Shown: piece after piece, positions 1 through 16,926 of the stretch
How positions within the stretch are numbered: position 1 is the first letter of the stretch
How the letters are laid out: each line of letters begins with the position of its first letter
DNA from: a virus
IMG/VR virus record: IMGVR_UViG_3300028925_006087
Coordinates: 1-22,128 of that record
Length of the DNA: 22,128 bases
Reading direction: 5' to 3' (one strand)
Notes under the pieces: model-generated
What the model saw: only the letters and a program-made list of their open reading frames with translations
What the model was told of the DNA's origin: nothing
The model's database searches: none
Translations under genes and position numbers: made by a program

Positions 1-772
1 CTACAACATTAGCCAAAGAAGCAGCTACCGCAGCGAACACTGGGACTGAACCTGCTCCTTGCGATTTAAGAAAATGCCCGGACGTTCCAGCCGCTACCGT
101 TGTCGCTGCTGCGTCAGCACCCCATGTGATTAGTTGCCCGTCTGTTCCTGCTGCAAGGTCAGCTACATCTACATTACTTAGGCTGTTCCCTGTAGCGTTT
201 GCATCAAAAGTCTTATTGGTTAAAGAATCAGTAGAACTTGCCGTGATACCAACATCCGTCCCAACATTTAACAACTGGAATCGAGTGCCGTCATAAGCGA
301 TCTCAAACATCGTACTAGCAGGAATATCCCCAGCCGCTAATGCTGTAGTCCCTTTCTTTGTTATTGCCTTCGCGCCCAAGCTATTTAGGTTGATAGTCGT
401 TGCTCCAGTATTTGCCCCGGCTGCCATCTTTATTCTAAAAGTTTGCCCAGCCGCATAAGCCGTTATGGCTGGAGCCATTGTTGCCACAATCGTGTTAGTC
501 CCTGACCCAGTAGCATATTGAGATCCACTATTTTGCGATTGACCCAATGTTGTAGAATCAGTGTTTACGGTTCCGACAGCTAAAGCCGTGATTTTAGTCG
601 AGCCAGCATTCTGATTCCCCGTCCAAGTCTTTTTCCCTGAGACTTCAAGCGAAGCTGATATCTCCGTTGCGATATCGTTTAGCTCAGAATTGATCTGAGT
701 CTCTTGGATAACTGTATTAAACGCATAATCTGATTGCGTCCTTGAATATGTACCTGATCCATTTCTTGCCAT
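1..772 (-). CDS. Tail fibre / receptor-binding-like protein, truncated at the left window edge
   Basis: An open frame starts at ATG 772 and runs off the left edge after 257 readable residues. The ATG lies 4 bases past the upstream stop codon, and a GGGAG ribosome site sits inside the end of the upstream gene. The N-terminus (MARNGSGTYSRT, then a QINSELNDIATEIS stretch) is the usual start of a podovirus fibre or spike protein that anchors to the virion. After about residue 45 the chain is rich in Gly, Ala, Thr and Asn in repetitive beta-type segments such as TINLNSLGAKAI and SLTNKTFDANATGNSLSN, typical of trimeric fibres. Being last in the late operon and next to ejection genes fits adsorption to the host. 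The missing C-terminus would carry receptor specificity, so the target cannot be inferred. Whether it is a fibre or an enzymatic tailspike is open. Confidence 0.8.
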   Translation of the reverse strand, partial: MARNGSGTYSRTQSDYAFNTVIQETQINSELNDIATEISASLEVSGKKTWTGNQNAGSTKITALAVGTVNTDSTTLGQSQNSGSQYATGSGTNTIVATMAPAITAYAAGQTFRIKMAAGANTGATTINLNSLGAKAITKKGTTALAAGDIPASTMFEIAYDGTRFQLLNVGTDVGITASSTDSLTNKTFDANATGNSLSNVDVADLAAGTDGQLITWGADAAATTVAAGTSGHFLKSQGAGSVPVFAAVAASLANVV

Positions 773-776
773 TTAT

Positions 777-2840
777 TTATCTCCCTGAGTTATTTGAGCC
801 AATCCCTACGGATGCACCAGATAGCAGTCGTTGTGCTAGTTTCCCTTGACCTGCATTGCTCATCTCTTTAGCAATAACGTGTTTTTCTAATGCGCTAACA
901 TCTCGCCCTGTTAATAACTCTGATAACTTCCTCGATGTACCGGGGGAGGTCAGAGTTTTATCTTTTAATCCACCAAATATATTTAACGCACCAGCTAACC
1001 ACGACACTGGGCTACCTCTTTTTAACTGTTCATATCCTGTCATAACCTTGCTCACAGGCTTAGAAAGTTCATCTATAGTTGCCGTATTGCTACCTGTCTG
1101 TGAGCCTTGAGTTCTTTTAAATGTACTATACATCTGATTTTCATTCACAAGATCATCTATATATTTCTTGAATATATCTTTATCCCCAAAAATATGTTTG
1201 AGTCTATCTTCAATGTTTTTCTTGCCCATCAATTGTTGGGTGGCATTAGCCGTGGGGGATGAGTTCTCGACTGTTTTTTTAAGAGCCTGAACTGCACCTA
1301 CTCTAAAATTATGCAACTCATGTGGTGTCATAACTTCAAGAGTCCCAGACATCTCCTTTGAATCAATGCCCTCTCGCATAAATTTAAGACCTTTGTCCAA
1401 CGCCCTCTGGTTGCCAATATTATCCCCTGCAACCTTCCTTGCTTCCCTATAAAATCCAGTGGTGTCTGCTTCATCAAGAGCTTCTGTTAGTTCCCTACGA
1501 ATAGAATTGTATGCGTTGCTAAGTTGTGTACTTTTCCCAGTTGTTGCATTTTTAGCAGCTTCCTCAAAATCCCATAATACTTTCTTAACTTCGTTGAGAA
1601 ATTCTAGTTTGAGTCCTTCTCCAATTTTCCCCTTGCCACCACCCTCTATAAAATCCTCTGTTGCCTCTTTGCTATACTGGCTGACGTTTTTCCCCTCCAT
1701 ACGCATTCCATCACCTGCTTTTTTCATAACTTCATCCATGTTCGGTCTACGCAACAATTTGTCAACAGTGTCGTTCTTTATCACTAAATTGGCATCATTC
1801 GCTTTCTTATACAATTCACTTGCTAATTTTTGGGCTTTGTCAAACGATGATCTATCATGGTATCCAGTCCCAAATGGCATATCTTCAAGTGTTTGGTAGA
1901 CCCTATTGGTGTTACCACCAATTAAGTTATTATCAATATCCCTTGTCCCGATGTGACGATCATTAACCCAATCTAAGGCTTTCTTTTGACCACCACCCGG
2001 TCTAGCTGCTTGAGCATAGAATAAATTCTGTGGATTCACACCAAGATCAGCGATAGTTGCGTTTGGTCCTATTTTTTTCATTTTTTCCAATGCAGATTTC
2101 GGGGTAAGCCCCTCTTTTTTAAGTGCTTCTGAAATCTGTCTTGCTGCGTTGGATGTTTGCGTATTAGAACCACCCCATCCTAAAACTAAATCCTTTACTG
2201 ATTTAGCCCCTTTATTAACACCAGAAACAACTCCGGGGATTGCTCCCCCAGTAACTGCCCCAATTATAGCTGCATCCTTTCCTTTTTGTAATCGCTCTGA
2301 TAGAGATCCTTCAGACTCACCAGCAACTTGAAGCCCACTACCTGCTCCCCCTACAACAGAGCCTTTACCTATTTTCGGGAGCAACTTTTTCCCTGCCATT
2401 GCCAAGTTCCCTGCACCTCTCAACAATGGGTTCCCCACCCCAGATAAGATTGAAGTGATTAATGCCGTTGTCGGGTTTCTGTCTTTAAATTCATCTCTTA
2501 CTTGTTTGCTTGTTCTGCTATCAGGGGATGGCAACATATCAAACTTTTCTCGCCACTCATTTTCTTTTTCTTGCGCCCAATCAGCTAATCTATCCGTCTG
2601 ACCAAAAGTCATACCACTCCCAGCAGTACGAACAAACCCTTTGACATCTTCTTGCCAAGGAACTTCTCCTTGATCTGGTTGTTGTTGCTGTTGCAATTGT
2701 TGTTGTTTCTGTGGTGGTGAAGGTTGCACAATCTCTGACGATATTCCACTTTCTTCGTCCAATACTGCCTCAATCTCCTGTGGACTCATATTGTCTGGGA
2801 ATTTAATCTTTCGCCCATCCTGCATTGTAACAGTTTTCAT
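777..2840 (-). CDS. Large internal virion / DNA-ejection-type protein (687 aa)
   Basis: This long gene starts at ATG 2840 with an ATGA overlap on the upstream gene and an AGAGGTC ribosome site. The N-terminal 30 residues (DGRKIKFPDNMSPQEIEAVL) form a short module often seen at the start of large podovirus internal proteins. A Gln-rich linker (about 45-54) follows. Residues about 125-215 are rich in Gly, Ala and small hydrophobics (GVGNPLLRGAGNLAMAG, then AAIIGAVTGGAIPGVVSGV), the kind of segment that can insert in a membrane. The rest is mostly charged helix. Its place between the gp10-like connector region and the tail fibre matches the ejection proteins of P22-like phages, which leave the head with the DNA and help it cross the envelope. 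Function is inferred from position and composition; I see no enzymatic motif. Confidence 0.7.
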   Translation of the reverse strand: MKTVTMQDGRKIKFPDNMSPQEIEAVLDEESGISSEIVQPSPPQKQQQLQQQQQPDQGEVPWQEDVKGFVRTAGSGMTFGQTDRLADWAQEKENEWREKFDMLPSPDSRTSKQVRDEFKDRNPTTALITSILSGVGNPLLRGAGNLAMAGKKLLPKIGKGSVVGGAGSGLQVAGESEGSLSERLQKGKDAAIIGAVTGGAIPGVVSGVNKGAKSVKDLVLGWGGSNTQTSNAARQISEALKKEGLTPKSALEKMKKIGPNATIADLGVNPQNLFYAQAARPGGGQKKALDWVNDRHIGTRDIDNNLIGGNTNRVYQTLEDMPFGTGYHDRSSFDKAQKLASELYKKANDANLVIKNDTVDKLLRRPNMDEVMKKAGDGMRMEGKNVSQYSKEATEDFIEGGGKGKIGEGLKLEFLNEVKKVLWDFEEAAKNATTGKSTQLSNAYNSIRRELTEALDEADTTGFYREARKVAGDNIGNQRALDKGLKFMREGIDSKEMSGTLEVMTPHELHNFRVGAVQALKKTVENSSPTANATQQLMGKKNIEDRLKHIFGDKDIFKKYIDDLVNENQMYSTFKRTQGSQTGSNTATIDELSKPVSKVMTGYEQLKRGSPVSWLAGALNIFGGLKDKTLTSPGTSRKLSELLTGRDVSALEKHVIAKEMSNAGQGKLAQRLLSGASVGIGSNNSGR

Positions 2841-4447
2841 TTCTGACCTCTTTTCTCAGGAATCACCCCTTTGCCTTTCACATAAACAAAATTCTTTTCT
2901 TCGCCACTTGTCCCCGGTATCGCTGTTGGTGTCGGAGTCTCATCCATTGACTCTTTGCCATAGTTGTTCCTGATCGTGTCGATCTGGAATTTTCTTATCA
3001 TAACAGCCCTCTTGTTTACGGCTTGCAATTCCTTGAGGCGTTGAGACACATAATCCTCATCGCTGATACCGTCAATTAATTCTTTCCATATCCTCAGAGC
3101 ATCGCCCTCTGTCTGGATACCCTTGTTTAGACGCAAAGAATCGTTACGCATTTTCTCAAGGCTAGTCTTAAAAGAACTATAATTTCTACTTTGCTCATCT
3201 CCACCAAACCCTGTATAGGTTTTAGCTGCATTAAGAGGGTTGGCAAAAAAACCTAGATCAAGTTTCCCACTTGTAATCATCTCGTCCCACTTTCCCAAGT
3301 CAGCGTCAAGCCCTTTAGCAGTCCCAATTGCGTCAATGTGGTCTTCTTGCATCTTTAGGGCCGCTGTTGGTAGTGGTTTGGATTTAGTTGCTTCATCCCT
3401 AGCTTCAGTCTTTATCTGTGCTTTTTCCCTTTCCACATCTGCATCAAAGAAAGACTTTGATGCTCGCCCCCGAGTTACCGCCTGTTCCTGTGACGCTACT
3501 GATCTTAGGTTTTTATCGAATGGGACCCCATCATCAACCCACTCACCTCCGACATAGTTCTGTCTTTGAACCAGCCCATTAGCCAAGAATTTTTCTTGCG
3601 TTTTTGGAGCCGTTGATCCTATCCTTTTATCCCGATCCTCAACCGCATAGCCTCTATCTCTTGTTGCATCAGCAAGTTTCTGATCTCTAGCAGTCCCAGC
3701 CAAACGTGAAGCTGCGTCCGTTTGCATTTGGTTCATCATCAAGCCTTGCAATAACCTTTGTGCGTATGGGTTGTTTTCCAGCCCTCGCAAGTTTTGCATT
3801 GAGTAATCCAGTTGAGGCATTTTTTTGTCTAATACATTTTGTTCGCTTGCCTCTCGTTGACGCGCAATCTCTTTATCAACAAAAATGTCTCTATCGCCTT
3901 TGCCAATTGCCATCTGGTCATTGAACCTATCCCCATACTGATCAATCATGTCATTTGCATTTGCGATACTATTGTTTTCAAATTCGATACGCTTATCTCT
4001 ATCTGCTGGGTTATTATAAACAGTTCCGGGATTGTTCGCCTCCTTTATACGGTCTTCTGCCTGTGTGATTCTGTCTTGTTGCTTACCGATTCTTCTCACA
4101 TTTTCCTGTACCATCGGGCCTTCCATCAGGTTCTGGTCGTTATATTGATCCAATATAGCACCAACCTGATTGCTCCCTCTAGCCTGTTCTTCACTTATCA
4201 TAGGCTGTCTCGTGAATGAATCAGCTTCCACTTTTGTAAATGCTTCGTTAGCTGCATTCTGGTTTTTCCGATCTCGCCCTGCTAAATAACCTCCAGTTAG
4301 ACCTTGGGCTATCCTTCCCAAAGTATCAGACCAATGATAAGCTGGCCCTTTCCTAGCACTTTCTTGCATTAACAATTCAGACAGTTTCCTATCAGGTGAA
4401 ACGTATTTATCCCCTAACCTATAACTTCCTATTCCTCTTCCTCTCAT
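2837..4447 (-). CDS. Internal virion / ejection-type protein (536 aa), helical
   Basis: The start is ATG 4447, overlapping the upstream stop as ATGA with GAAGAGG as the ribosome site. Residues 31-62 (ARKGPAYHWSDTLGRIAQGL followed by TGGYLAGRDRKNQ) are a segment I recognise from internal-protein genes of many podoviruses, where a short amphipathic Gly/Ala helix precedes a long hydrophilic region. The rest is strongly charged and Gln/Arg-rich, with probable helices and coiled coils at about 100-230 and 320-420. No catalytic motif is visible. It sits directly between an S74-tailed structural protein and the 687-aa protein, so all three are probably made together as late virion parts. The likely role is DNA ejection or a core component; a tail accessory protein is possible. 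Confidence 0.65.
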   Translation of the reverse strand: MRGRGIGSYRLGDKYVSPDRKLSELLMQESARKGPAYHWSDTLGRIAQGLTGGYLAGRDRKNQNAANEAFTKVEADSFTRQPMISEEQARGSNQVGAILDQYNDQNLMEGPMVQENVRRIGKQQDRITQAEDRIKEANNPGTVYNNPADRDKRIEFENNSIANANDMIDQYGDRFNDQMAIGKGDRDIFVDKEIARQREASEQNVLDKKMPQLDYSMQNLRGLENNPYAQRLLQGLMMNQMQTDAASRLAGTARDQKLADATRDRGYAVEDRDKRIGSTAPKTQEKFLANGLVQRQNYVGGEWVDDGVPFDKNLRSVASQEQAVTRGRASKSFFDADVEREKAQIKTEARDEATKSKPLPTAALKMQEDHIDAIGTAKGLDADLGKWDEMITSGKLDLGFFANPLNAAKTYTGFGGDEQSRNYSSFKTSLEKMRNDSLRLNKGIQTEGDALRIWKELIDGISDEDYVSQRLKELQAVNKRAVMIRKFQIDTIRNNYGKESMDETPTPTAIPGTSGEEKNFVYVKGKGVIPEKRGQK

Positions 4448-4452
4448 GAGAG
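4441..4452. repeat. Perfect 12-bp palindrome over an ATGA overlap
   Basis: CTCTCATGAGAG is perfectly self-complementary and is centred on the overlap of the stop codon of the S74-tailed protein and the start codon of the 536-aa protein. In RNA the arms could pair only weakly because there is no loop. It may be chance. Confidence 0.4.
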
Positions 4453-5739
4453 TACCTCTTCATAATTGACCATATCATATCCACTAGGATGAACTATAAC
4501 TGCATGAGGTTTGATCTTCCTAACCTCATCCGACATGACCCCGATTTGTTGAGGGCCACCCCAAATGTAATTAAACATATAAACAAAAAGACCGTTAGCG
4601 AGTTGACCAATCTTTCTGATGTTTTCTTTGACCCGTCTATCTGACATATACAGCTGCGCCCCAGTACCAGCCAAAGATGCGAGAGTGCTACCCATAGACC
4701 CCTTGCCAGCACTGTCTGCTTGTCGTTGTTGGTTGTAGGCGTTGTTTGCAGCATTATAATTAGCGTAAGTCGCGCCCTGAATATCCCCTGCTTGCATCGA
4801 TTGTTGTGGCGTGTTCAGGAAAGATGGACCTTGAACCTGTGATCCAGACAACATGGCAGCCAACTCATTGAGTGGGATCTGCCTCTGTTGGACTAACTCA
4901 TTAACACCTCGATCTCTTGCGTTAGCGTCTAATCTATATTGCGCTTCTATATCTCTTAAACCTCTATCTCTTGCCTGATTGCTAAAATCAAATTGCTGAC
5001 CTATCTCGTTAGTAGCTCTCCCTCTTTGGTCAGATTGGAGTCCGTACAATTGAGACATTTGGTTTAAGGCTTGGTTGTCTGCCGCTAGGTTAAAATCATT
5101 CAATCCTCTATTGTAATCAAACATAGCATCTGAATAAGCCTTTGACCCTTGGGCAATCCCCTGTGTATCTAACCGACTTCGTAACTGATCGAGTTTTCTT
5201 TCTTGATAAGGTTGTTCCCGGTCTTGGATAGATTGTCGTACTGTTTGCCTTGTCTGTTCGTTAGCTACTGGGGCCGCACCCAAGTTATTAAAGTTTGCTG
5301 TGGGAGCTTGACCAAGAGTGCTTAAATCCGCTACTGGGGCCGCGCCTAATCCACTGAAGTCAACAGGGGCTGATAACTGGCCTGAAACTTGGTTAAGTTG
5401 TGCGTTTGCAGTCTCCCCATATTTCTCCCCTGCTTGGTTTGTTAGATCAAGTTGCCTTTGTCCTGATGGGCTAAGTGTTGAGGTAGCTGTATATTGTGGA
5501 GTATCAGCAGCAGAAGTCCCAGTTTGGTCGTAGTCTAAATTTCCGAAAGGACTCACTTGGTTTATCATGTTTAATTCTTGCGAGGCAACAGCAGCTTCTT
5601 TATTAGCAGCACCTTGTGCTCGGGCCGTAGCTACTGGGTCAGGGGCTGGGGGAGGAGAATAATAACCACCACCACCTTTCTTCTGATCCAATTTTGCAAA
5701 GAATCCTTCTAGTTGCTTAAAGTCTAAAGTTGTTATCAT
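4444..5739 (-). CDS. Virion protein with C-terminal S74-type (intramolecular chaperone-like) segment (431 aa)
   Basis: ATG 5739 directly follows the upstream TAA; GGAG in the end of the upstream gene is the ribosome site. The N-terminus is Gly/Pro-rich (GGGGYYSPPPAPDP). Residues about 110-165 contain short repeats of the type LGAAPVA/LGQAPTA. A Gln/Asn/Arg-rich helical middle follows (AQGSKAYSDAMFDYNRGLND near 196). The last 66 residues, from about 366, read SDRRVKENIRKIGQLANGL and later QIGVMSDEV and GYDMVNYEEV. This is the signature of the peptidase S74 / intramolecular chaperone family, with the Ser-Asp and Arg-x-Lys elements at the point where longer homologues self-cleave. Here the domain is a short version on a protein that is not an obvious fibre. 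A podovirus structural or ejection-related role is likely; self-cleavage is not shown. Confidence 0.7.
   Translation of the reverse strand: MITTLDFKQLEGFFAKLDQKKGGGGYYSPPPAPDPVATARAQGAANKEAAVASQELNMINQVSPFGNLDYDQTGTSAADTPQYTATSTLSPSGQRQLDLTNQAGEKYGETANAQLNQVSGQLSAPVDFSGLGAAPVADLSTLGQAPTANFNNLGAAPVANEQTRQTVRQSIQDREQPYQERKLDQLRSRLDTQGIAQGSKAYSDAMFDYNRGLNDFNLAADNQALNQMSQLYGLQSDQRGRATNEIGQQFDFSNQARDRGLRDIEAQYRLDANARDRGVNELVQQRQIPLNELAAMLSGSQVQGPSFLNTPQQSMQAGDIQGATYANYNAANNAYNQQRQADSAGKGSMGSTLASLAGTGAQLYMSDRRVKENIRKIGQLANGLFVYMFNYIWGGPQQIGVMSDEVRKIKPHAVIVHPSGYDMVNYEEVLS
5262..5350. repeat. Degenerate tandem repeat inside the S74-tailed gene
   Basis: The plus strand shows GCTACTGGGGCCGC at about 5264 and again at about 5330, with a related unit between them. 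On the coding strand these units encode LGAAPVA/LGQAPTA repeats. Three imperfect copies are visible in the protein. They look like slippage-derived linker repeats. Confidence 0.55.
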
Positions 5740-6180
5740 TTATTTATTTCTCCACATTCTTTCATAATCTGGTTTGAACATCCTTTTAATAACAGCGTGT
5801 CTTTTCTTCCCAAATTGGTGAGCCATTATACCCTCTTTAGTAAAACCGACATGATCTGTCATTTGTAATGATCTCTTATTATCCGATGGAATCGTAAGCC
5901 AACATTTAAAAACATCGACTTGGTAAAATGGATAAGCTAACAAATCTTTAATCACTTCTTTCCTCGCCCACATTGGGTTCGTCGCTGCAATGTTCAACTG
6001 TATTGTTTTATACTCTGGTTGCCATTCATTGTAAACAACCCCTGCTATTAACTTTCCTTGAGAGATAACACCTATTGCTGTTGCTTCCTTAAAACCATTA
6101 TTAACTTCTGGAATATGTCGAGACACCCAATCAGACACCTCTTCAGACTCTCCATAAAGTAATGTCGGTGAGCTCCTCAT
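5740..6180 (-). CDS. GNAT-family acetyltransferase-like protein in the tail gene cluster
   Basis: 146 residues starting at ATG 6180, overlapping the upstream stop. The layout is that of a small GNAT: an early strand (ATAIGVISQGKLIAGVVYNEW, about 33-53), a central strand (TIQLNIAATNPMWARKEVIKDLLAYPF, about 64-90, where the acetyl-CoA loop is expected), a third strand (VFKCWLTIPSDNKRSLQMTDHVGFTKEG, about 94-121) and the C-terminal HQFGKKRHAVIKRMF. The N-R-x-x-x-x and GFTKEG elements match the last GNAT motif. Such genes recur in podovirus structural operons, where the substrate is unknown. Candidates are a virion protein or a host target. There is no evidence for a specific substrate, and the acetyl-CoA loop is not a perfect match. 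Confidence 0.65.
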   Translation of the reverse strand: MRSSPTLLYGESEEVSDWVSRHIPEVNNGFKEATAIGVISQGKLIAGVVYNEWQPEYKTIQLNIAATNPMWARKEVIKDLLAYPFYQVDVFKCWLTIPSDNKRSLQMTDHVGFTKEGIMAHQFGKKRHAVIKRMFKPDYERMWRNK

Positions 6181-6524
6181 ATAATGTGCCAGTTAGCTCC
6201 ATCAGAAATAATAGTTAAAGTATCATACTGGGTGCCTAGTGTTTTCGTTGTTGCTCCATCAATTGTTTCAGATCCAGCCCCATCAATTGTGATAGTCGCA
6301 CCTGCCAATCTTTTGACAATAATTCTCTGGTCTTTGTTCCCTACAGCCGTGAACAATGTGGCCGTTCCTGTTGCCATTAAAATGACACCATCTGTCGTTA
6401 ACACTCCATAGCTCCCTGCTGGTGTTTGGATATCCCCACCAACACAATCAATCAGCACATTGATTTTTTCTTTCGCTGGTCTATCCCTAATATCTCTAGG
6501 AAACAATTTTTGGATATCAGTCAA
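6177..6524 (-). CDS. Small beta-rich virion-like protein (115 aa), TTG start
   Basis: The start is TTG 6524, forming a TTGA overlap with the stop codon of the gp10-like gene. GAGGTGG sits 6 bases upstream, and no ATG in this frame is better placed, so the TTG call is well supported. Residues about 40-115 are a run of short beta strands rich in Thr, Gly and Ile (GVLTTDGVILMATGTATLF, then IIVKRLAGATITIDGAGSE, ending TLTIISDGANWHII). The final DGANWHII-type strand is common at the ends of beta-sandwich or fibre-like phage proteins. Being sandwiched between connector and tail genes suggests a small decoration, connector or fibre-accessory subunit. I cannot name a family with certainty. Confidence 0.6.
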   Translation of the reverse strand: MTDIQKLFPRDIRDRPAKEKINVLIDCVGGDIQTPAGSYGVLTTDGVILMATGTATLFTAVGNKDQRIIVKRLAGATITIDGAGSETIDGATTKTLGTQYDTLTIISDGANWHII

Positions 6525-8077
6525 ATTTGACCACCTCGAACAAATGTGTAATTAGTAGAAACCCATGAAGGTCTTGAGATAGAAGTAGTAACCCTTACTC
6601 TTAAGGAAGCTGCTCTCCCATGACCACGGACACCCAACCACCCTTTAAAAACTTGATCTGCTTTTCCCCAAAGAGAGACACCCCATCTTGCAACGCCCCA
6701 TTGTCCTGCACTGTTAGGTAAAGGTTGAGGCTGTCCGACAGGAGCGTAAGTAGTAAAATCCACGTTTAAATCCAGAGCAGGGTTTGGATTGCCTGTACTT
6801 ATAAAAATGGGCTCGACTAATTTAAAAGCCTTTTCACTTCCTTTTGAACCAAAGTAACTGAAGGCTGCCATTGCGTCTCCAGTAATCGCTGTCCCAGCAT
6901 CTGAAGGGTATGTATCCCCATTGGCATCAACCCCATCAAATTCGTGGACTGTCCCATCCGTCTTACCAAAAAACATTTTATCACCTCGCATTCCCCAACA
7001 AAGTGCATTTAGACCTTTAAATCTACAAGGCGCACCAGTTAAGGAATTAAAAACATATTGGTGCATTTCTGTTGCACTGATTGGGATGTTAAATATTAAC
7101 ATCTGTGATTTAGGGAACACGATGGGTTGCCACCCGAATAAATCCCCATAGCTTTTAACCGCGCTATTAACAGCATCATTAATTTGTTTAGATATAGCCA
7201 CATTCTCAGAAGACGATCTATCCACAGAAAGAATGCTTGAAACGTCTTGGAACCCATTTTCTGAGATCAAAGCAAGCGAACTTCCGACCTTCGTTACGCA
7301 ACGCCTACCGACAGGCCTCCCATGTTGGAAGACACCAACCAAAGCCCATGTACTAGCACTCGATGGGTCAGTCCCTGAGTAGACAGCAATCTCTCCCTCA
7401 CTTGAATAAAATACAGCAACATCATCGGGGCCAGAACCTCCATCTCTTGTCCAGCTTCCCATTGCCATGATATAACCACCCCTTTTAAAAATACCATCAA
7501 GAGCAAATTCCAACGCTGCCCCATTTATTGTCCGGGTGCTTAAATACCAGAAAGAAAGACTATTTTTTTCACCAAAGAATATCCTTGCTTGGTGAGTAGT
7601 ACACCATATCAAATTTGCAATAGTGGGGCCTGATACCGTAGAGTTCGCCCATGCAGATCCGTTATACGTTTGGGGAGTGTCTTCACCATTACAGGCAAAG
7701 AGAAATTGTCCTCCAGCCGTACCAATTTGAGTATGTTGAAATCTGTTATTTGACCGACTTGAAACAACCGCTGCCCCTACCGACCCTGAGTCTGTAACCT
7801 CGTAAATGCTTCCGTTGTTACAAGCATATAATTCATTAACTCCCGTCAATGGTGCATATTCCATTAGAGTCTCAACATTCCCACTCATACCCGTTGCATA
7901 AGATATAGAACCACCACGGAGCGTAACGTGTTCAGTCTCAGGGAAAAAATTATCTAAGATCACTGCATTATCTGAAGGCATGGATGCTAATGCGTGCCTA
8001 GTATCCCATCCCCCCGTTGGAGCAGGTAATGTTTTAGATACGGATGAAGGTCTTGTTCTCGTGATACCAAGGGTCAT
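6521..8077 (-). CDS. Packaged-DNA stabilisation protein, P22 gp10-like (518 aa)
   Basis: ATG 8077 overlaps the upstream stop as ATGA. The N-terminus (PAPTGGWDTRHAL at about 18-30, LDNFFPE at 41-47, RGG near 54) is the pattern shared by gp10-type proteins and related podovirus connector proteins, where it docks on the neck. The rest reads as repeated beta blades with Trp, Gly and Asp turns (ELYACNNGSIYEV, FLFACNGEDTPQTYNGSAW, ALISENGFQDVS), as expected for a propeller. Length is close to the roughly 470 residues of P22 gp10. In P22 this hub closes the portal channel and supports the tail, and the gene order coat, gp4-like, gp10-like agrees. The assignment rests on pattern and order, not on an alignment. 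Confidence 0.75.
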   Translation of the reverse strand: MTLGITRTRPSSVSKTLPAPTGGWDTRHALASMPSDNAVILDNFFPETEHVTLRGGSISYATGMSGNVETLMEYAPLTGVNELYACNNGSIYEVTDSGSVGAAVVSSRSNNRFQHTQIGTAGGQFLFACNGEDTPQTYNGSAWANSTVSGPTIANLIWCTTHQARIFFGEKNSLSFWYLSTRTINGAALEFALDGIFKRGGYIMAMGSWTRDGGSGPDDVAVFYSSEGEIAVYSGTDPSSASTWALVGVFQHGRPVGRRCVTKVGSSLALISENGFQDVSSILSVDRSSSENVAISKQINDAVNSAVKSYGDLFGWQPIVFPKSQMLIFNIPISATEMHQYVFNSLTGAPCRFKGLNALCWGMRGDKMFFGKTDGTVHEFDGVDANGDTYPSDAGTAITGDAMAAFSYFGSKGSEKAFKLVEPIFISTGNPNPALDLNVDFTTYAPVGQPQPLPNSAGQWGVARWGVSLWGKADQVFKGWLGVRGHGRAASLRVRVTTSISRPSWVSTNYTFVRGGQI

Positions 8078-8772
8078 AGCGTGGTTGTCCCTCCTGTTGG
8101 TTTGCCACCAAAAATATCCCCAGCTAACAATGTTCCAGATGAAGGTTGATCGTTTTTAGCAAGCAATTTAAACATGTCTAAATATGTTTTTGCTGCCGAT
8201 ACCGCAGGGAGACCATCCCCATCAAGGTACTCGTATATTATGCCCAACGTCAAAAGTTCTGAATTAATCAATGGGATGTCAGTGTCTAAAGTGAATGCCA
8301 CTTTTGGAGTTCCTGATGCTGCGATATCTACCCACTTATTTGAGACATACTCATAAGCGTAAGCCAACCCAGCCGTAGGTGTTGGGATAACTAAAATAGA
8401 ATCTCCTCGCAATCTAAACTTTCTACTTCCTGTATTGTTGTAATCTGTGGCCTTGAGATTTTGCCATTCTTTAGGAGTGGTTGGACCCGTCATTAAAAAA
8501 GCGGCTGTCCTGTCCCAAAATGTTTCAGGGATAAAACGATCAAAATCTGCCTCCAGTATTGTTGACGTTTGTGTTTCGCTTGCGACTGAAGTAAAAGTCT
8601 TTTCTTTTGTGAGGATTTGCCAATGGAAAGACTTCATTAATGCGTTGCCAACCTTGTCAGCGTATCGGATCATTTTCAAAGTCTCAACCGCACCATTACC
8701 AATACCCGTGGCTGGTTGAGCAAGCCCGATTTCATCAGCCGCATTTTGAATTATCTTTAAAAAATTAGCCAT
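8074..8772 (-). CDS. Head-tail connector / tail accessory protein, P22 gp4-like (232 aa)
   Basis: ATG 8772 opens a frame whose start MANFLKIIQNAADEIGL and following helical region (ALMKSFHWQILTKEKTFT, about 48-65) match the family of podovirus connector proteins that bind below the portal. FDRFIPETFWDR at about 77-88 and FRLRGDSILVIPTPTAG at about 118-134 are also typical: many homologues have a Trp/Arg-rich central part and a beta strand of this kind. It is somewhat longer than the 166-residue P22 gp4. The only GGAG is 13 bases from this ATG but suits another ATG at 8782, which opens a five-codon reading frame ending across this start. Expression may therefore rely on termination and reinitiation. 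No lysozyme motif is apparent. Confidence 0.65.
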   Translation of the reverse strand: MANFLKIIQNAADEIGLAQPATGIGNGAVETLKMIRYADKVGNALMKSFHWQILTKEKTFTSVASETQTSTILEADFDRFIPETFWDRTAAFLMTGPTTPKEWQNLKATDYNNTGSRKFRLRGDSILVIPTPTAGLAYAYEYVSNKWVDIAASGTPKVAFTLDTDIPLINSELLTLGIIYEYLDGDGLPAVSAAKTYLDMFKLLAKNDQPSSGTLLAGDIFGGKPTGGTTTL

Positions 8773-11030: not shown

Positions 11031-12938
11031 TTACTGTTGGGGGATTCCCTGCGGTGGCAATGGCTGTCCCTGTGGTTGTATTGGTTGACCCGTATTTGGA
11101 TCAATTTGTGGAGCTTGCGGTTGTTGAGGGGGTTGCTGTGGTTGTTGAGGTTGTGGCTGTGTAGCCATCCTCATCCTTTCAGCAACTTTCTCAGCACCTT
11201 CAAAGTCCATGTGTTCTAATAAAATATCACCGATAAATTCTGCCGATCCCGGTACTTGTCTCATTATCTCTATCAATGTTTCTCTAGTCTCTTCACGTTG
11301 GGATTCGTATGTTGGCCCTGCTTTCACTGTCACATCATATCGCCCTGTGTTTAGATCATATAATTTTTCTTCTATTTCATTTTCTTCGTTAACTTGGTTT
11401 GGATCTTGTTGGTTTGCAGCATTAGAGTTTACTAGCTGAACCACTTTTTCTTTCTGGTCTGATCCTATAATCCTTAACGTATCTCTTGCCGTATAAACGC
11501 TAGGTATAATCTCGACCAAACACTTGCCAGCGTATTGAATCGCCCTAGACAAGTTATCCACAAAATGAAAGTTAGATACATCAGACTCTTTCTGGCGAGC
11601 AAGGATAGCCTTTCCACTGGTTTCATTTGATCTAGCTCCAAGAGAAGTATCATAAATCCCAATAATAGCTTTCATGTCATCCGCTGCCATCATGGATTCG
11701 TTAATCGCTCCCGATGGGACACCAGCAAAAGGTTGTCTTGTCGGGGCCGCACCTGCTGACGGGTCATATTCCAAAGTGGCGTGGCTTCTGGTATTAGCAG
11801 ATTCCCATTTCTCTGCGTCATCAGGATGAATAAATCCTCTAGGCCCAATGAATGGAGCTTTCGGAGCGAGTGCCACCAATTCAGTAGAAGCTGAACGCCA
11901 AAAGTTGAGCATCATCTGTGAGTCTTTTGCATCATGGATCATTGACCTAAAATGTCTACGTCCATCGTAAATTATTTCTTCTCCCCAAACAGGACAGATC
12001 GGGATTGATTCGCCCGGCCACTCATCTTCCTCCAGAACATCCTTGCCACTTAAAACCCTTCTCATTACTTTATGCGTTTGGACAAGTCTTTCTCTTTTGA
12101 TGTTTACACCTTCCACCAACATCAGCATCCTACCGTCATCGGTTAAAGATGATTCTCGTATAACCATCCCGTTATCTAACTCAAGCAATTTCCTAGTTAC
12201 AGGTTCTCGCAGAAAATACTCTGCAACCTGAATATGTTCCTCATGAATTGAGAAATGGTTTACCGTTCCTCGTTCATCTCCTTGGAAGCTACTTGCTTCT
12301 CGATCAGGCCATTGACTCTCAAATTCGTCCTTAGTAAAGAAGTCACTTACGAAACCATAGTTCCAATCAGAAGCATCAAACTCAGTAGAGTTAACATCCC
12401 AATGGACTAATAATGGATTTGGTATTCTGTGGATTCTAGCCTCTAGGTCAAAAGACTCAGGACTTGCGTAATGAATGCCAATACGGAAAAAACCAAAGCC
12501 ACCTGACACCGCATGATCCAAGGCAGTATCAAAAGCGATATCAGCGTTTGAGTTTCTTTGAACAGCTCTAACCAATCCATTAATAACTTCTGCCGTAGCT
12601 TTATCTGCCCCATTGTCCACAGGTGAAACAATGATTCCCGGTTTATTCTGACGGGCATCGTTTACAACTTGGCGAACAAATGGAGGAATTTTATTGATGG
12701 TCAAGCAGGGTCGAGATTCAAGCTCTCGTTGACGTTTTACATCTCTAGGCCATTGATCACCTAAACGTCCAAAACTTATATCCTCTTCATATCGGTTGCG
12801 ATTAAAGTCAGAGCCATCTTGTGACTCTTCAAACCTTTCAGTCGCACCTTTTATGATGTCGGCTTCTTTGTTAGAATCACCCTTTTTAGGTCTTTCGCTT
12901 TTCTCTGTTTTCTTTTCTTCGTCTTGTATTGCTTCCAT
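11031..12938 (-). CDS. Portal protein, P22-type (635 aa)
   Basis: ATG 12938 opens a 635-residue frame. After a charged N-terminus, residues about 45-110 (NRYEEDISFGRLGDQWP, ESRPCLTINKIPPFVRQVVN, DARQNKPGIIVSPVD) carry the diagnostic start of the P22-type portal family. VSGGFGFFRIG (about 144-154) and the following WDVNSTEFDASDWNYGF region also fit. The last about 50 residues are almost only Pro, Gln and Gly, a low-complexity tail. The portal forms the dodecameric ring at the capsid vertex that DNA passes through and on which TerL docks. P22 portal is 725 residues with a long C-terminal barrel; here the barrel seems shorter or replaced by the Pro/Gln tail. It is preceded by a 77-bp AT-rich gap after the polyvalent protein gene. 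Confidence 0.85.
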   Translation of the reverse strand: MEAIQDEEKKTEKSERPKKGDSNKEADIIKGATERFEESQDGSDFNRNRYEEDISFGRLGDQWPRDVKRQRELESRPCLTINKIPPFVRQVVNDARQNKPGIIVSPVDNGADKATAEVINGLVRAVQRNSNADIAFDTALDHAVSGGFGFFRIGIHYASPESFDLEARIHRIPNPLLVHWDVNSTEFDASDWNYGFVSDFFTKDEFESQWPDREASSFQGDERGTVNHFSIHEEHIQVAEYFLREPVTRKLLELDNGMVIRESSLTDDGRMLMLVEGVNIKRERLVQTHKVMRRVLSGKDVLEEDEWPGESIPICPVWGEEIIYDGRRHFRSMIHDAKDSQMMLNFWRSASTELVALAPKAPFIGPRGFIHPDDAEKWESANTRSHATLEYDPSAGAAPTRQPFAGVPSGAINESMMAADDMKAIIGIYDTSLGARSNETSGKAILARQKESDVSNFHFVDNLSRAIQYAGKCLVEIIPSVYTARDTLRIIGSDQKEKVVQLVNSNAANQQDPNQVNEENEIEEKLYDLNTGRYDVTVKAGPTYESQREETRETLIEIMRQVPGSAEFIGDILLEHMDFEGAEKVAERMRMATQPQPQQPQQPPQQPQAPQIDPNTGQPIQPQGQPLPPQGIPQQ

Positions 12939-13015
12939 TTAGTGTACCCTTTTCGACTACATAATTTGATTTACAATATAACCTTTTTTATTTAATTATT
13001 CTAGTAAGCCTTTCT

Positions 13016-14584
13016 TTAAAACCTCTCGTTTGGATCTTGTCCCATTAGTTGGCTTGCTAAAAAACCTGCTCCTGCACCAGCTAACACGTTTGCTGAGTTT
13101 TTCTTTCTGGGATCAAATTTAGCAAACTTAGAACGTATGTTTTTTGGGTTAAACATCATAAGATTCTCAACCCCTCCCTCCATCAGTTTAGTCCCATCAT
13201 ACCCAAGCTCTTTCAATGCTTGCTGTACGATTTCCTGCTCAATTTTATGTGCATCGCCCCTCGCCACACCACCTTCGAGTACATCCCTAGCATAAGGATA
13301 ATAGCTAACTGCATCGGTGTATGGGTTAGCTTTCGCATGAGCATTTAACTCATCCATCTTGGCAAGAACTGCACTCACCTCATCTTGATTGTTAGCATTA
13401 AATATCTTACCTTTAGCATAAACGGGGGCAATGGGACCAGTGCCGTAAGTAAACTGCTCTGCGAACTCTGGGTCAGATGAGTAAAACGAATCTTTCTTAC
13501 TACGCTTATAATCTTTGTCTGTTCCTCTGTACCATGTTTTATCTACATCAAACCCCATATCCTTAGCCCTTCCCATTCTTAACGATTCATCTAAGCCTTT
13601 TGCTAAGTCTCCAATCGGTTGATCGTTGCGTTCTAATATCTTTGCAATATCATCTGTGAATGAAACAAAGTTTGATGCTCCTTTGCCACCTTGTCTAGAA
13701 CCCTGCTCTCCTCGCATCATATTAGTTAATTTTTTATGTGCTTTTCTAGCTGTCCGTTCCCCTGAATGAGTCATTCGCCCCATTTGCATATGTGGGTTTT
13801 CTTTCATGAATTCTGTCAACAATTCTGTTCCTATTGAATCCCCATGAAAACGCCTTGGCCCTTTTGGGTTAAGAAACACACCAACCGATCCAAACTCATT
13901 AGAGGCATGACCAATAGGCTCTCCATTAAAAAAGGCAGTGATCGTTTGATCTTCAACAGGTAAGCCTTTTGCTTTTATTTCTGAATCTGACAAGGACAGT
14001 GCCAAACCGTCATCTCCCCTAGCAACCTTCTCGTTGGGTCCATCACCGATCATCTTTGTATACGAATTCTTTATGCCAGACTTTCTGAACTCAACTTGTC
14101 CCTGTGGGATATCAATGGTTTTTATTAACTGTGGGTTTGCCTTTATCTCTGTTCCCCACCAATCTGTTTCGTCATAAGCCCCAATAGGGATAGTTCCTGT
14201 TTTATGAGTTTTTATAAACTCGTTCTCTGTTAATTGCATAGGGTCTTTCCCCCCATACCATTTCTTTTTGCTAAGAGGCATTTTCTTTAACATTCCAGCC
14301 AACCCACCCGTATCCATAGCTGGAAGATAATTACCTAAACCCTCCATTAGTTCAGCTTTTGGTGTATTGTCGATTGCTTGCCGTACATCATCGTTTAAGG
14401 CTGGACTCGATCTACTCCATGCTTCTGGGCCAGTAACATCATCATAGAACTGTAACGCTTTGCCAATGAAAGGAACATCCCTCATACGGTGAGCATCATA
14501 CGACATTCGATTAGAGTCCCACTTGCGTTCATCTAGTCGTTGCCGTCTTAATGGGCTATTTCTTAACATATCTGCTAAATTCAT
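13016..14584 (-). CDS. Polyvalent protein with GNAT-like and ADP-ribosyltransferase-like (ART-PolyVal) segments (522 aa)
   Basis: ATG 14584 overlaps the upstream gene's stop by one base. Residues about 214-286 resemble a GNAT core: TITAFFNGEPIGHASNE, the strand SVGVFLNP, then RRFHGDSIGTELLTEF in the acetyl-CoA-loop position. Residues about 335-490 have the pattern of the ART domain of phage polyvalent proteins: MGRAKDMGFD followed by WYRGT (351-355, the Arg motif), SFYSSDPEFAEQF (366-378, the Ser-type motif) and GYDGTKLMEGGVENLMMFNP with KNIRS (461-485, where the Glu motif is expected). A Gly/Ala stretch (LAGAGAGFLASQLMG) lies near the C-terminus. The gene sits between terminase and portal, a place used for proteins packaged in the head and delivered to the host. 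Host modification on infection is plausible. The ART assignment is fairly strong; the GNAT part is tentative. Confidence 0.7.
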   Translation of the reverse strand: MNLADMLRNSPLRRQRLDERKWDSNRMSYDAHRMRDVPFIGKALQFYDDVTGPEAWSRSSPALNDDVRQAIDNTPKAELMEGLGNYLPAMDTGGLAGMLKKMPLSKKKWYGGKDPMQLTENEFIKTHKTGTIPIGAYDETDWWGTEIKANPQLIKTIDIPQGQVEFRKSGIKNSYTKMIGDGPNEKVARGDDGLALSLSDSEIKAKGLPVEDQTITAFFNGEPIGHASNEFGSVGVFLNPKGPRRFHGDSIGTELLTEFMKENPHMQMGRMTHSGERTARKAHKKLTNMMRGEQGSRQGGKGASNFVSFTDDIAKILERNDQPIGDLAKGLDESLRMGRAKDMGFDVDKTWYRGTDKDYKRSKKDSFYSSDPEFAEQFTYGTGPIAPVYAKGKIFNANNQDEVSAVLAKMDELNAHAKANPYTDAVSYYPYARDVLEGGVARGDAHKIEQEIVQQALKELGYDGTKLMEGGVENLMMFNPKNIRSKFAKFDPRKKNSANVLAGAGAGFLASQLMGQDPNERF

Positions 14585-14931
14585 TAGCTGAACATTCTAG
14601 CTAGAGATCCAAGACCACCACTTTTGCCACCACCCTTACCAGATGGGAGCAATTCATCAATACCTCTAGCACCATCAAAAGCTGATCCGATATCGAGATT
14701 ATCGTAGCTTGTGTTACCATTCCCACCATCTCCACCCATTGAACTGTCGTTAGGGTCACCACTAAGCGTTTTTATAGCAGGAACAAGTTTCATCAAGAGG
14801 TCAGCAAAATCCCCAACTGAATCAGCCGTATTCCCTAGTGATGAGCTATCATCAGAATCTTCGGCACTCATTAACCCAATATAACCCAACCCATCTAACT
14901 CATCCCAACCCATTTTTTTTCTTTTAGCCAT
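14584..14931 (-). CDS. Hypothetical acidic, Gly/Ser-rich protein (115 aa)
   Basis: I do not recognise this protein. ATG 14931 has GAGG upstream near the stop of the coiled-coil gene. After a basic start (MAKRKKMGWDELDGLGYIG), residues 22-40 are Asp/Ser-rich. One helix with hydrophobic spacing (VGDFADLLMKLVPAIKTL, about 39-56) follows. A disordered Gly/Asp/Asn region leads to a Gly/Lys-rich C-terminus ending LGSLARMFS. It shares a base with the polyvalent protein's start and is likely translated with it. It could be a virion partner or chaperone of that protein, but only position suggests this. Confidence 0.6.
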   Translation of the reverse strand: MAKRKKMGWDELDGLGYIGLMSAEDSDDSSSLGNTADSVGDFADLLMKLVPAIKTLSGDPNDSSMGGDGGNGNTSYDNLDIGSAFDGARGIDELLPSGKGGGKSGGLGSLARMFS

Positions 14932-14943
14932 TATGCAAAATCC

Positions 14944-15114
14944 TCATTTGTTTGCTTGCTTTGATAACTTTAATTCATATTCAAGATCGTCCATTATTAC
15001 TTTAAGCTGATGATATTCGTTTTTCAAACGCACCATGCTTCTGCCTGTTTGAGATACTGCTTCCTCAAGTTTGCCTTGCATTTCTTTCTGGTCTAATTCA
15101 ATTTGGTTGTTCAT
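14944..15114 (-). CDS. Coiled-coil microprotein after TerL (56 aa)
   Basis: ATG 15114 overlaps the TerL stop as ATGA; the frame runs 56 codons to TGA at 14944. The product is nearly all helix (MNNQIELDQKEMQGKLEEAV, then MVRLKNEYHQLKVIMDDLEYEL) with a heptad-like spacing of Leu, Val, Ile and Met, so it should form a coiled coil. There is no signal or membrane segment. Coupled translation with TerL suggests a late role, perhaps packaging or assembly, but function is unknown. Confidence 0.65.
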   Translation of the reverse strand: MNNQIELDQKEMQGKLEEAVSQTGRSMVRLKNEYHQLKVIMDDLEYELKLSKQANK

Positions 15115-16373
15115 CCTAACCATCCAGTAGCTGCCCGTGGAGTTAATCGTTTCCTAGCAGTAGTTGGTCTTTGCACCAACTTAGGAAACAAATGAGTGAA
15201 TCCCCAAACAAGTGCGTCTACTCTATCGGGTGAGCCTTCTCCTGCATAACCTCCTGCCACCATCTGGCACATTTGATCTTCTAACTCTGGGAACGTACCT
15301 ACATGACTGATACGGCCTAAACTATAAAGAGAGCTGATTGGCTCTGCCCGAACATGCTTGCCTCGTGTTGCCCTAACTTCCACGATTGGCAAACCGGGTT
15401 CAACACTTGTAAGCGTATTTCTACACATATCGCCCCCTTGATTAACCTCAATTACCACTGAGTCAGAATCCCATTTATGAAATATACTCACAGCCCGATT
15501 AGCCCATTGAGATGGTGTACCTTTTAGAGATACATCATCAAGCACATAACCACGCCCATCAGAGCCAATACCCACAACAACAATCCCATGCTCGTTAGAT
15601 TTCTCTTCAGACGAAATTGCTGGATCAATGCTGACAACGATCCTGCCCATCTCTGGCACTTCTTGACGCCTGTTCTGATGAAACGTCTGACGGTCCCAAA
15701 TTGCACCCACCGCAGTAGGTTCATATTCCCCCATCCAGATATGGCTGTACCTATCTCTCTTAGTTTCCTTGTCAAATATTCTTTCATCGTTTAGCTCTTT
15801 AGGAAAAAATTTATTATCATCAAAGTTAACTTTCTTGATGATTGCATTCTTTGGAGTGACTTCACCCCTAAACAACTTATCAACTGGGTCATTTGCGTTC
15901 CTTGGGTTCCAACTAAACCATAACTCACTACCCGGTTGTCTAATCGTTGGTATCAATACCTCTAAAGATCGCTGTGAAATGTTTTGTGCCTCTTCAATCC
16001 AACAACGATTTATTCCCTCTAAAGATTTTATCTGATCTGTAGTCATTGCCCCAAGGCCAGCAAATAAAAACACCGTGCCATTAGCTCCCCTGATTTCATT
16101 CTGCAAAGATGTGTAATGATCCTGCAATCCTAGTATCTCGATCTGATCGTCTAACAATAACTTAACTGAATCTTTAATAGATCGTTGAACCTCTCGACCA
16201 CATAGAATCCTTAATTTCTTTTCATAGCCCTCACACAGTAAAGCTTTTGCAAATGAATGAGACTTTGCTGAACCTCGACCCCCAAAATAAGCTTTATACC
16301 TACAAGGTTTATATAGATCCATGAAAGGCTCAGGGATCTCAACATCAACTTCTTCAGTTAAAATCTGTGTCAT
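15111..16373 (-). CDS. terL: Terminase large subunit (420 aa)
   Basis: ATG 16373 lies inside the end of terS and gives 420 residues; an upstream in-frame TTG at 16391 would add six residues but lacks support. Numbered from the ATG, Walker A is GGRGSAKS (31-38). Walker B with the catalytic glutamate is CWIEEA (124-129), and the coupling motif region is WFSWNPRN (about 152-159). The C-terminal RNase-H-like nuclease shows SIDPA with Asp about 250, VVIEVNQGG with Glu about 309, and PDRVDALVWG with Asp about 383 and 386. This is the Terminase_3/PBSX-like type, usually linked with headful packaging. It pumps DNA through the portal encoded downstream. All main motifs are intact. Confidence 0.93.
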   Translation of the reverse strand: MTQILTEEVDVEIPEPFMDLYKPCRYKAYFGGRGSAKSHSFAKALLCEGYEKKLRILCGREVQRSIKDSVKLLLDDQIEILGLQDHYTSLQNEIRGANGTVFLFAGLGAMTTDQIKSLEGINRCWIEEAQNISQRSLEVLIPTIRQPGSELWFSWNPRNANDPVDKLFRGEVTPKNAIIKKVNFDDNKFFPKELNDERIFDKETKRDRYSHIWMGEYEPTAVGAIWDRQTFHQNRRQEVPEMGRIVVSIDPAISSEEKSNEHGIVVVGIGSDGRGYVLDDVSLKGTPSQWANRAVSIFHKWDSDSVVIEVNQGGDMCRNTLTSVEPGLPIVEVRATRGKHVRAEPISSLYSLGRISHVGTFPELEDQMCQMVAGGYAGEGSPDRVDALVWGFTHLFPKLVQRPTTARKRLTPRAATGWLG

Positions 16374-16926
16374 CTTCGCCTTCAGGCACAACGCCTATAA
16401 TGTTTAAAACCTTAATAGGTTTCTCTCCACCACTAACCTCTAGCTTATCCTTGAACAATCCTAAACTCTTGCCCAACATCTCTGATGCTTTAATTTGGTC
16501 TAGTCTTTTAATTGATTGCCATCCAGTACCATCTGCTGCAAATTGGCTTTTCATCTCACTCACACAACGCTTGGCCCTTGCTGTCATTCCAGAAAAAGAC
16601 TTTGGTATAAACGTACCGTCTGGACCCTGATCAAACATTTCATCCATCGGGGTGTAAGTCAGGTCATGCCAGTATTGCAACAAGTCATCAGCATTGATAT
16701 TAGTTCTCTTCTCACGCTCCTTCAACTTGTCCTTAATAAATTCTTGAACCTTAACATTACTTAGTAATCGGCAAGAGCTTTCACTAGCCCCATTCTCGCT
16801 GTAACCTGCTCTAATATAAGCCTGTGTTGCATTTAGATCAACCAAATACTCACGGCAGAAAACTTTTTGTTTTTCAGTCAACTTATTTATCTGAACAGCT
16901 TCATTCATTGTGCGTTCTTTCCCCAT
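16354..16926 (-). CDS. terS: Terminase small subunit (190 aa)
   Basis: ATG 16926 follows the upstream stop after 2 bases; ATG 16908 (MNEAVQ) is an alternative with GGGGAAAG upstream, so the true start may be six codons later. Residues about 16-66 (LTEKQKVFCREYLVDLNATQ, AYIRAGYS, then SCRLLSNVKVQEFI) are the typical Terminase_2 DNA-binding domain with a helix-turn-helix. The middle (LLQYWHDLTYTPMDEM) and the IKRLDQIKASEMLGKSLGLF segment also match the family. It selects the viral DNA (pac site) and feeds it to TerL. The C-terminus (GEKPIKVLNIIGVVPEGEDD) is the likely TerL contact. The gene overlaps terL. Confidence 0.88.
   Translation of the reverse strand: MGKERTMNEAVQINKLTEKQKVFCREYLVDLNATQAYIRAGYSENGASESSCRLLSNVKVQEFIKDKLKEREKRTNINADDLLQYWHDLTYTPMDEMFDQGPDGTFIPKSFSGMTARAKRCVSEMKSQFAADGTGWQSIKRLDQIKASEMLGKSLGLFKDKLEVSGGEKPIKVLNIIGVVPEGEDDTDFN

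Follow-up and report, generated by a model that had tools for sequence, protein, structure and literature searches.

We propose that a 522-aa protein encoded among the late genes of a P22-like phage is probably a short polyvalent-type effector, in which a GNAT-fold domain is joined to a divergent ADP-ribosyltransferase (ART) domain resembling ART-PolyVal. The protein appears to be produced alongside the head and packaging proteins and would enter the host with the DNA. Computation established an ART-like fold with matching kinship for one domain, GNAT-like kinship for the other, and the late-operon position. The window, that is the whole stretch of DNA analysed, comprises the 22,128 bases of a virus record, and the virus is a podovirus. 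The gene and the neighbours needed here are:

13016..14584, minus strand: two-domain protein gene, 522 aa, an ATG-TAA frame; library matches for the whole protein are without significance
14584..14931, minus strand: gene for a Gly-rich protein of 115 aa, upstream of the two-domain gene; no Pfam or PHROG match
15111..16391, minus strand: terminase large subunit (terL), context; PF04466 7.9e-33, phrog_3717
11031..12938, minus strand: P22-type portal, context; PF16510 E 7.2e-177, phrog_156

The genes run terL, two-domain gene, portal, then scaffold and coat on one strand (minus), in agreement with the sequence-only reading, which had placed the gene between terminase and portal. The plus strand is closed across 13016-14584. 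The ATG of the two-domain gene overlaps the stop of the upstream 115-aa gene (TAATG), and the two genes are probably translationally coupled. Promoter and terminator scans gave results at or below chance. In relatives of Octadecabacter Antarctic DB virus 2 (OANV2), a small Gly-rich gene likewise lies directly upstream of the ART gene, comparable to that at 14584-14931.

We compared the terL-portal junction with that of six related phages carrying P22-type portals. In these phages the two genes are adjacent or at most about 0.4 kb apart, with only small genes between them, and the 1.57-kb two-domain gene is thus an addition, an extra cargo at this junction. In G+C, overall and at third positions, it does not differ from its neighbours, so that composition gives no mark of a recent foreign origin. 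Three sister contigs (L003, L004 and L005) are nucleotide-identical to the window at about 13000-15000 and differ from it in terL and in the 18.5-19.7 kb region. This identity across the two-domain gene may reflect recent exchange or assembly collapse, and because the region holds no differences, selection tests with the sister contigs were unusable. Another GNAT-like protein, this one free-standing (phrog_4470, E 8.3e-28), is encoded among the late genes at 5740-6180 on the minus strand, with a homologue in the related podovirus contig L013.

Profile searches of Pfam, PHROGs and NCBIfam with the 522-aa protein itself returned nothing significant. The match to PF18760 or a GNAT profile for which the sequence-only reading had proposed a Pfam search was therefore not found with the protein itself, and both halves were placed via relatives. 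A phmmer search against PDB gave one weak match (E 0.48), which we set aside as chance.

The C-terminal half corresponds to:

13100..13579, minus strand: ART-like domain, residues 336-495; 18 relatives at 19-38 % identity, all with PF18760, and an AlphaFold model aligning to ARTs

In 2.3 Gb searched by tblastn, residues 330-501 matched OANV2 gp6 (29 % identity, E 3e-4), itself a match to PF18760 ART-PolyVal at an E of 7.7e-4 that falls below the curated cut-off. An IMG/VR scan with the two-sequence alignment of the window domain and gp6 gave 24 loci, and the ART alignment used below consists of the window domain and 18 IMG/VR relatives (19 sequences). All 18 relatives match PF18760, the best at 5.6e-13, and the window domain itself has no match to it at E up to 1. 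Kinship to PF18760 members by tblastn and blastp ranges from E 1e-20 to 3e-4; blastp against the L013 ART protein gives E 5e-20.

The order of motifs is GRAKDMGFD (residues 338-346), WYRG (351-354), SFYSSD..FAEQF (366-378), GYDG and ENLMMFNPKNIRS (to residue 485). The sequence-only reading had noted ART motifs in the right order after GRAKDMGFD, and these are present, with eight residues invariant in all 19 aligned sequences: R336, R339, A340, G344, F345, D346, G354 and R484 in window numbering.

The AlphaFold model of residues 336-495 has a pLDDT of 79.8 and a pTM of 0.74. By VIA-align, its first match is the anti-CRISPR protein 6kyf (Z 7.1, rmsd 4.2, 128 residues), followed at Z 4-6 by NatT, MbcT, diphtheria toxin, cholix, exotoxin A, tankyrase, PARPs and KptA. 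A VIA Z below 8 can come from common arrangements and each of these values is modest, but the run of matches is to one superfamily. In a viral structure library the model's best match, at E 2.3e-9 and 28 % identity, was to a phage protein carrying the name N-acetyltransferase domain-containing; several proteins named ART-PolyVal rank below it. Taken together, the predicted structure and the PF18760 matches of the relatives uphold the proposed ART-like domain, and we regard an ART fold in the C-terminal half as almost certain.

In the ART-PolyVal family, strand 1 contributes H to the catalytic set, strand 2 Y and strand 5 D (Iyer et al. 2017, PMC5512222). The corresponding places in the window are:

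13523..13534, minus strand: ART strand 1, WYRG 351-354, with R353 in the place of the family histidine (alignment of 19 sequences)
13472..13489, minus strand: ART strand 2, SFYSSD 366-371, with F367 at the tyrosine column (model strands and alignment)
13151..13171, minus strand: late ART strand, VENLMMF 472-478, with E473 or N474 close to where an acidic residue is expected (model strands and alignment)

Histidine fills the strand-1 column in 17 of the 19 sequences; L013 has S there and the window R. Among the relatives, mixed aromatic residues predominate in the strand-2 column and the strand-5 acidic column varies; judged from the alignment, the only clear exception in the putative active site of the window is the His-to-Arg change. 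We considered an R-S-E type ART made from R353 and SFYSS and dropped it, since the alignment places F367 and not a serine at the second position. The domain shares the RAKxMGFD lead-in and the P..IRS..A.FDP end with ART-PolyVal (PF18760, Tox-ART-HYD2 clade). Because it does not match the PF18760 model and has R353, F367 and E473/N474 in place of H-Y-D, we file it as a divergent relative of ART-PolyVal and not as a bona fide member.

The N-terminal half holds the second domain:

13715..14269, minus strand: GNAT-like domain, residues ~106-290; kinship to L006 and L054, hhalign, low-confidence model
13829..13855, minus strand: position of the acetyl-CoA loop, residues 244-252, RRFHGDSIG, from alignments with L006 and L054

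Residues 106-281 align with the 364-aa L006 protein at 40 % identity (E 7e-32), which bears out the GNAT-like core seen upstream by the sequence-only reading. In the L006 protein a clear NUDIX domain (PF00293 3.4e-13) comes after the GNAT-like domain (Acetyltransf_7 0.0021). Two copies of the window domain in the L054 protein have 35-43 % identity to it (Acetyltransf_7 0.0013 and 0.0057) and lie next to clearer GNAT domains. The Acetyltransf_7 scores of these L006 and L054 relatives (0.0013-0.0057) are below the curated cut-off. A four-sequence GNAT alignment compared by hhalign with other phage GNAT segments aligned the acetyl-CoA loop (P 2.8e-4). Scanning 84,980 species genomes of bacteria and archaea twice with GNAT alignments brought up no relative.

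A full-length alignment had put the L006 GNAT onto the ART, and the ART and GNAT domains were consequently modelled apart. Structure prediction, proposed as a check by the sequence-only reading, supported the ART fold and left the GNAT half at low confidence (pLDDT 59.4). The top VIA matches of this GNAT model are acetyltransferases (Z 4.8-6.8), as are essentially all of its 50 VIA rows apart from one unnamed structural-genomics entry. The acetyl-CoA loop of the window differs from QGSGIG and QRQGIG of the relatives by a four-residue insertion and has S for the first loop G. The loop consensus Q/R-x-x-G-x-G/A is found in L006 and L054, and the window sequence (HGDSIG) departs from it. We regard a GNAT fold as probable, and the assignment of residues ~106-290 as a GNAT is likely, short of proof.

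For the ART and GNAT halves the fold is supported and catalysis is not: the His-to-Arg change and the altered acetyl-CoA loop may mean lost or changed catalysis, and that both sites are catalytically active is somewhat doubtful. One alternative explanation is that the folds have been kept while one or both domains lack catalysis, leaving a binding or scaffold protein or an internal virion protein. The arginine where 17 of 19 sequences keep histidine would fit such a loss, as would F at the Tyr column, E or N at the acidic column, and the insertion and serine of the GNAT loop. However, the Tyr and acidic columns also vary in relatives that match PF18760, and the L013 protein has WYRG as well, in its first ART copy, for which hhalign gives a match to the ART profile at E 4.7e-6. 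The acetyl-CoA loop, too, varies in known GNAT enzymes such as GNA1. ART classes with an active-site Arg, namely the R-S-E class and T4 Alt, are active (PMC5512222). We consider this explanation a minority possibility. It is also conceivable, at a still lower probability, that a sub-branch of phage polyvalent ARTs with the His-to-Arg change (WYRG, also in the first L013 copy) uses a different catalytic set and is paired with a GNAT whose acetyl-CoA loop has been remodelled, the result being an injected protein whose chemistry is altered or non-canonical.

Another alternative, to which we give the same low weight as to retained folds lacking catalysis, is that the enzyme acts late in the producing cell and is never packaged. 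Its co-expression with terminase and portal would then be operon position only, or it would shield the packaging proteins from host immunity. The link to the virion comes from gene position and protein class, the ART gene of L013 lies elsewhere among structural genes, and the same alternative has been offered for ARTs beside terminase and portal genes (PMC9503650). Against it, packaged proteins, for example T4 Alt and P1 DdrB/DarA, are the model for the polyvalent class (PMC5512222). A further alternative is that an unrelated structural protein resembles ARTs and GNATs in its motifs by chance, for which the missing direct profile match could be cited. This explanation is largely refuted and very improbable: two proteins with domains scoring as GNAT and as ART are matched at E values of 7e-32 and 5e-20, and an ART fold is predicted.

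Under the favoured reading of an injected effector, the protein would be made late, together with the head and packaging proteins, would be taken up into the head and would enter the host along with the DNA. Early in infection it would covalently modify host proteins by ADP-ribosylation and/or acetylation, perhaps blunting defence or retuning transcription, as T4 Alt does after injection. We infer packaging, injection, catalysis and targets; for virion delivery, gene position and class make us lean moderately in favour. Papers on OANV2 and podovirus virions yielded no virion proteomics for an ART homologue, the OANV2 paper making no mention of mass spectrometry. CRISPR effectors are disabled by the phage ART AcrIF11 and the phage acetyltransferase AcrVA5. 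By analogy, these two enzymes and T4 Alt could serve as models for the target, with no pointer to any one.

ARTs and GNATs are protein-modifying domains of polyvalent proteins, and the window protein carries two effector domains, GNAT-like and ART-like, in one phage polypeptide, in keeping with the polyvalent definition of at least two. The sequence-only reading had held a GNAT and an ART in one late protein to be uncommon. In one polyvalent GNAT family, however, an ART is the typical neighbour in the same polypeptide, and virion packaging of such proteins has been proposed (Iyer et al. 2017, PMC5512222). The combination recurs in three further phage proteins (L018, L030 and L032). The pairing is thus not new, and the 522-aa protein is a compact further example of a described class. 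Like the proteins of Iyer et al., to which we liken it by the described pairing, it has both domains in one phage polypeptide, a late structural context and an ART of the ART-PolyVal kind by kinship; unlike them, it is short, with two recognisable domains, and has the His-to-Arg change in its ART. Phage ARTs next to terminase and portal genes, likely packaged, have already been described, about 44 % of phage ARTs being in contexts that suggest packaging (PMC9503650).

The late-gene setting is also seen in the OANV2/DB2 gp6 and L013 relatives. OANV2 gp6 is likewise a podovirus gene soon after terL, with an ART-PolyVal-like C-terminal half; it differs in that no GNAT was recognised, its middle being ParB-like by eye, and in that tail genes come next and the portal lies elsewhere. 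The AcrIF11-type anti-CRISPR ADP-ribosyltransferase 6kyf is the best solved structure for the window ART model, but at 9 % identity and with nothing pointing to an anti-CRISPR role. T4 Alt, a phage ART that acts on RNA polymerase (Iyer et al. 2017, PMC5512222) and on MazF (PMC10286901), is our proposed functional model of a packaged, injected modifier of host proteins; it differs in belonging to another clade (R-S-E) and to a myovirus, and in having no GNAT.

In an OANV2-like family (L002:2752-4233, L028:442-1737, L030:3056-4660 and L032:1206-2693) the N- and C-terminal ends are kept and the middle is swapped. The middle is ParB-like by eye in OANV2 and has a weak GNAT score in L030 and L032, and the insert is absent from L028; from the sequences, this looks like effector-cassette exchange inside one protein frame. 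L013 has five other late genes in common with the window and carries its tandem-ART gene (5299-6555; first copy WYRG, second YSG) at a different late position, between homologues of window 8074-8772 and 6521-8077 and not at terL-portal. The L006 gene (5968-7062), with the same GNAT family plus NUDIX, comes from a phage contig of 28.8 kb that also carries many short paralogues in tandem (NPESLYGYKDRFKI). On L054, likewise a phage contig, positions 2-6991 encode a fragment of a protein that has at least 2,329 aa and contains the window GNAT family twice, besides at least two other GNAT domains. Two YRG stretches in L054, considered as ARTs, had weak or no support.

The 522-aa protein extends the set of phage polyvalent proteins by a compact two-domain form, and its GNAT and ART modules also occur recombined with NUDIX, ParB-like and other domains. 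The His-to-Arg change is a warning that motif order alone is no proof of activity. At 522 aa, the protein would be much easier to express and assay than forms of 1,000-3,000 aa, and host modification after injection would be testable there.
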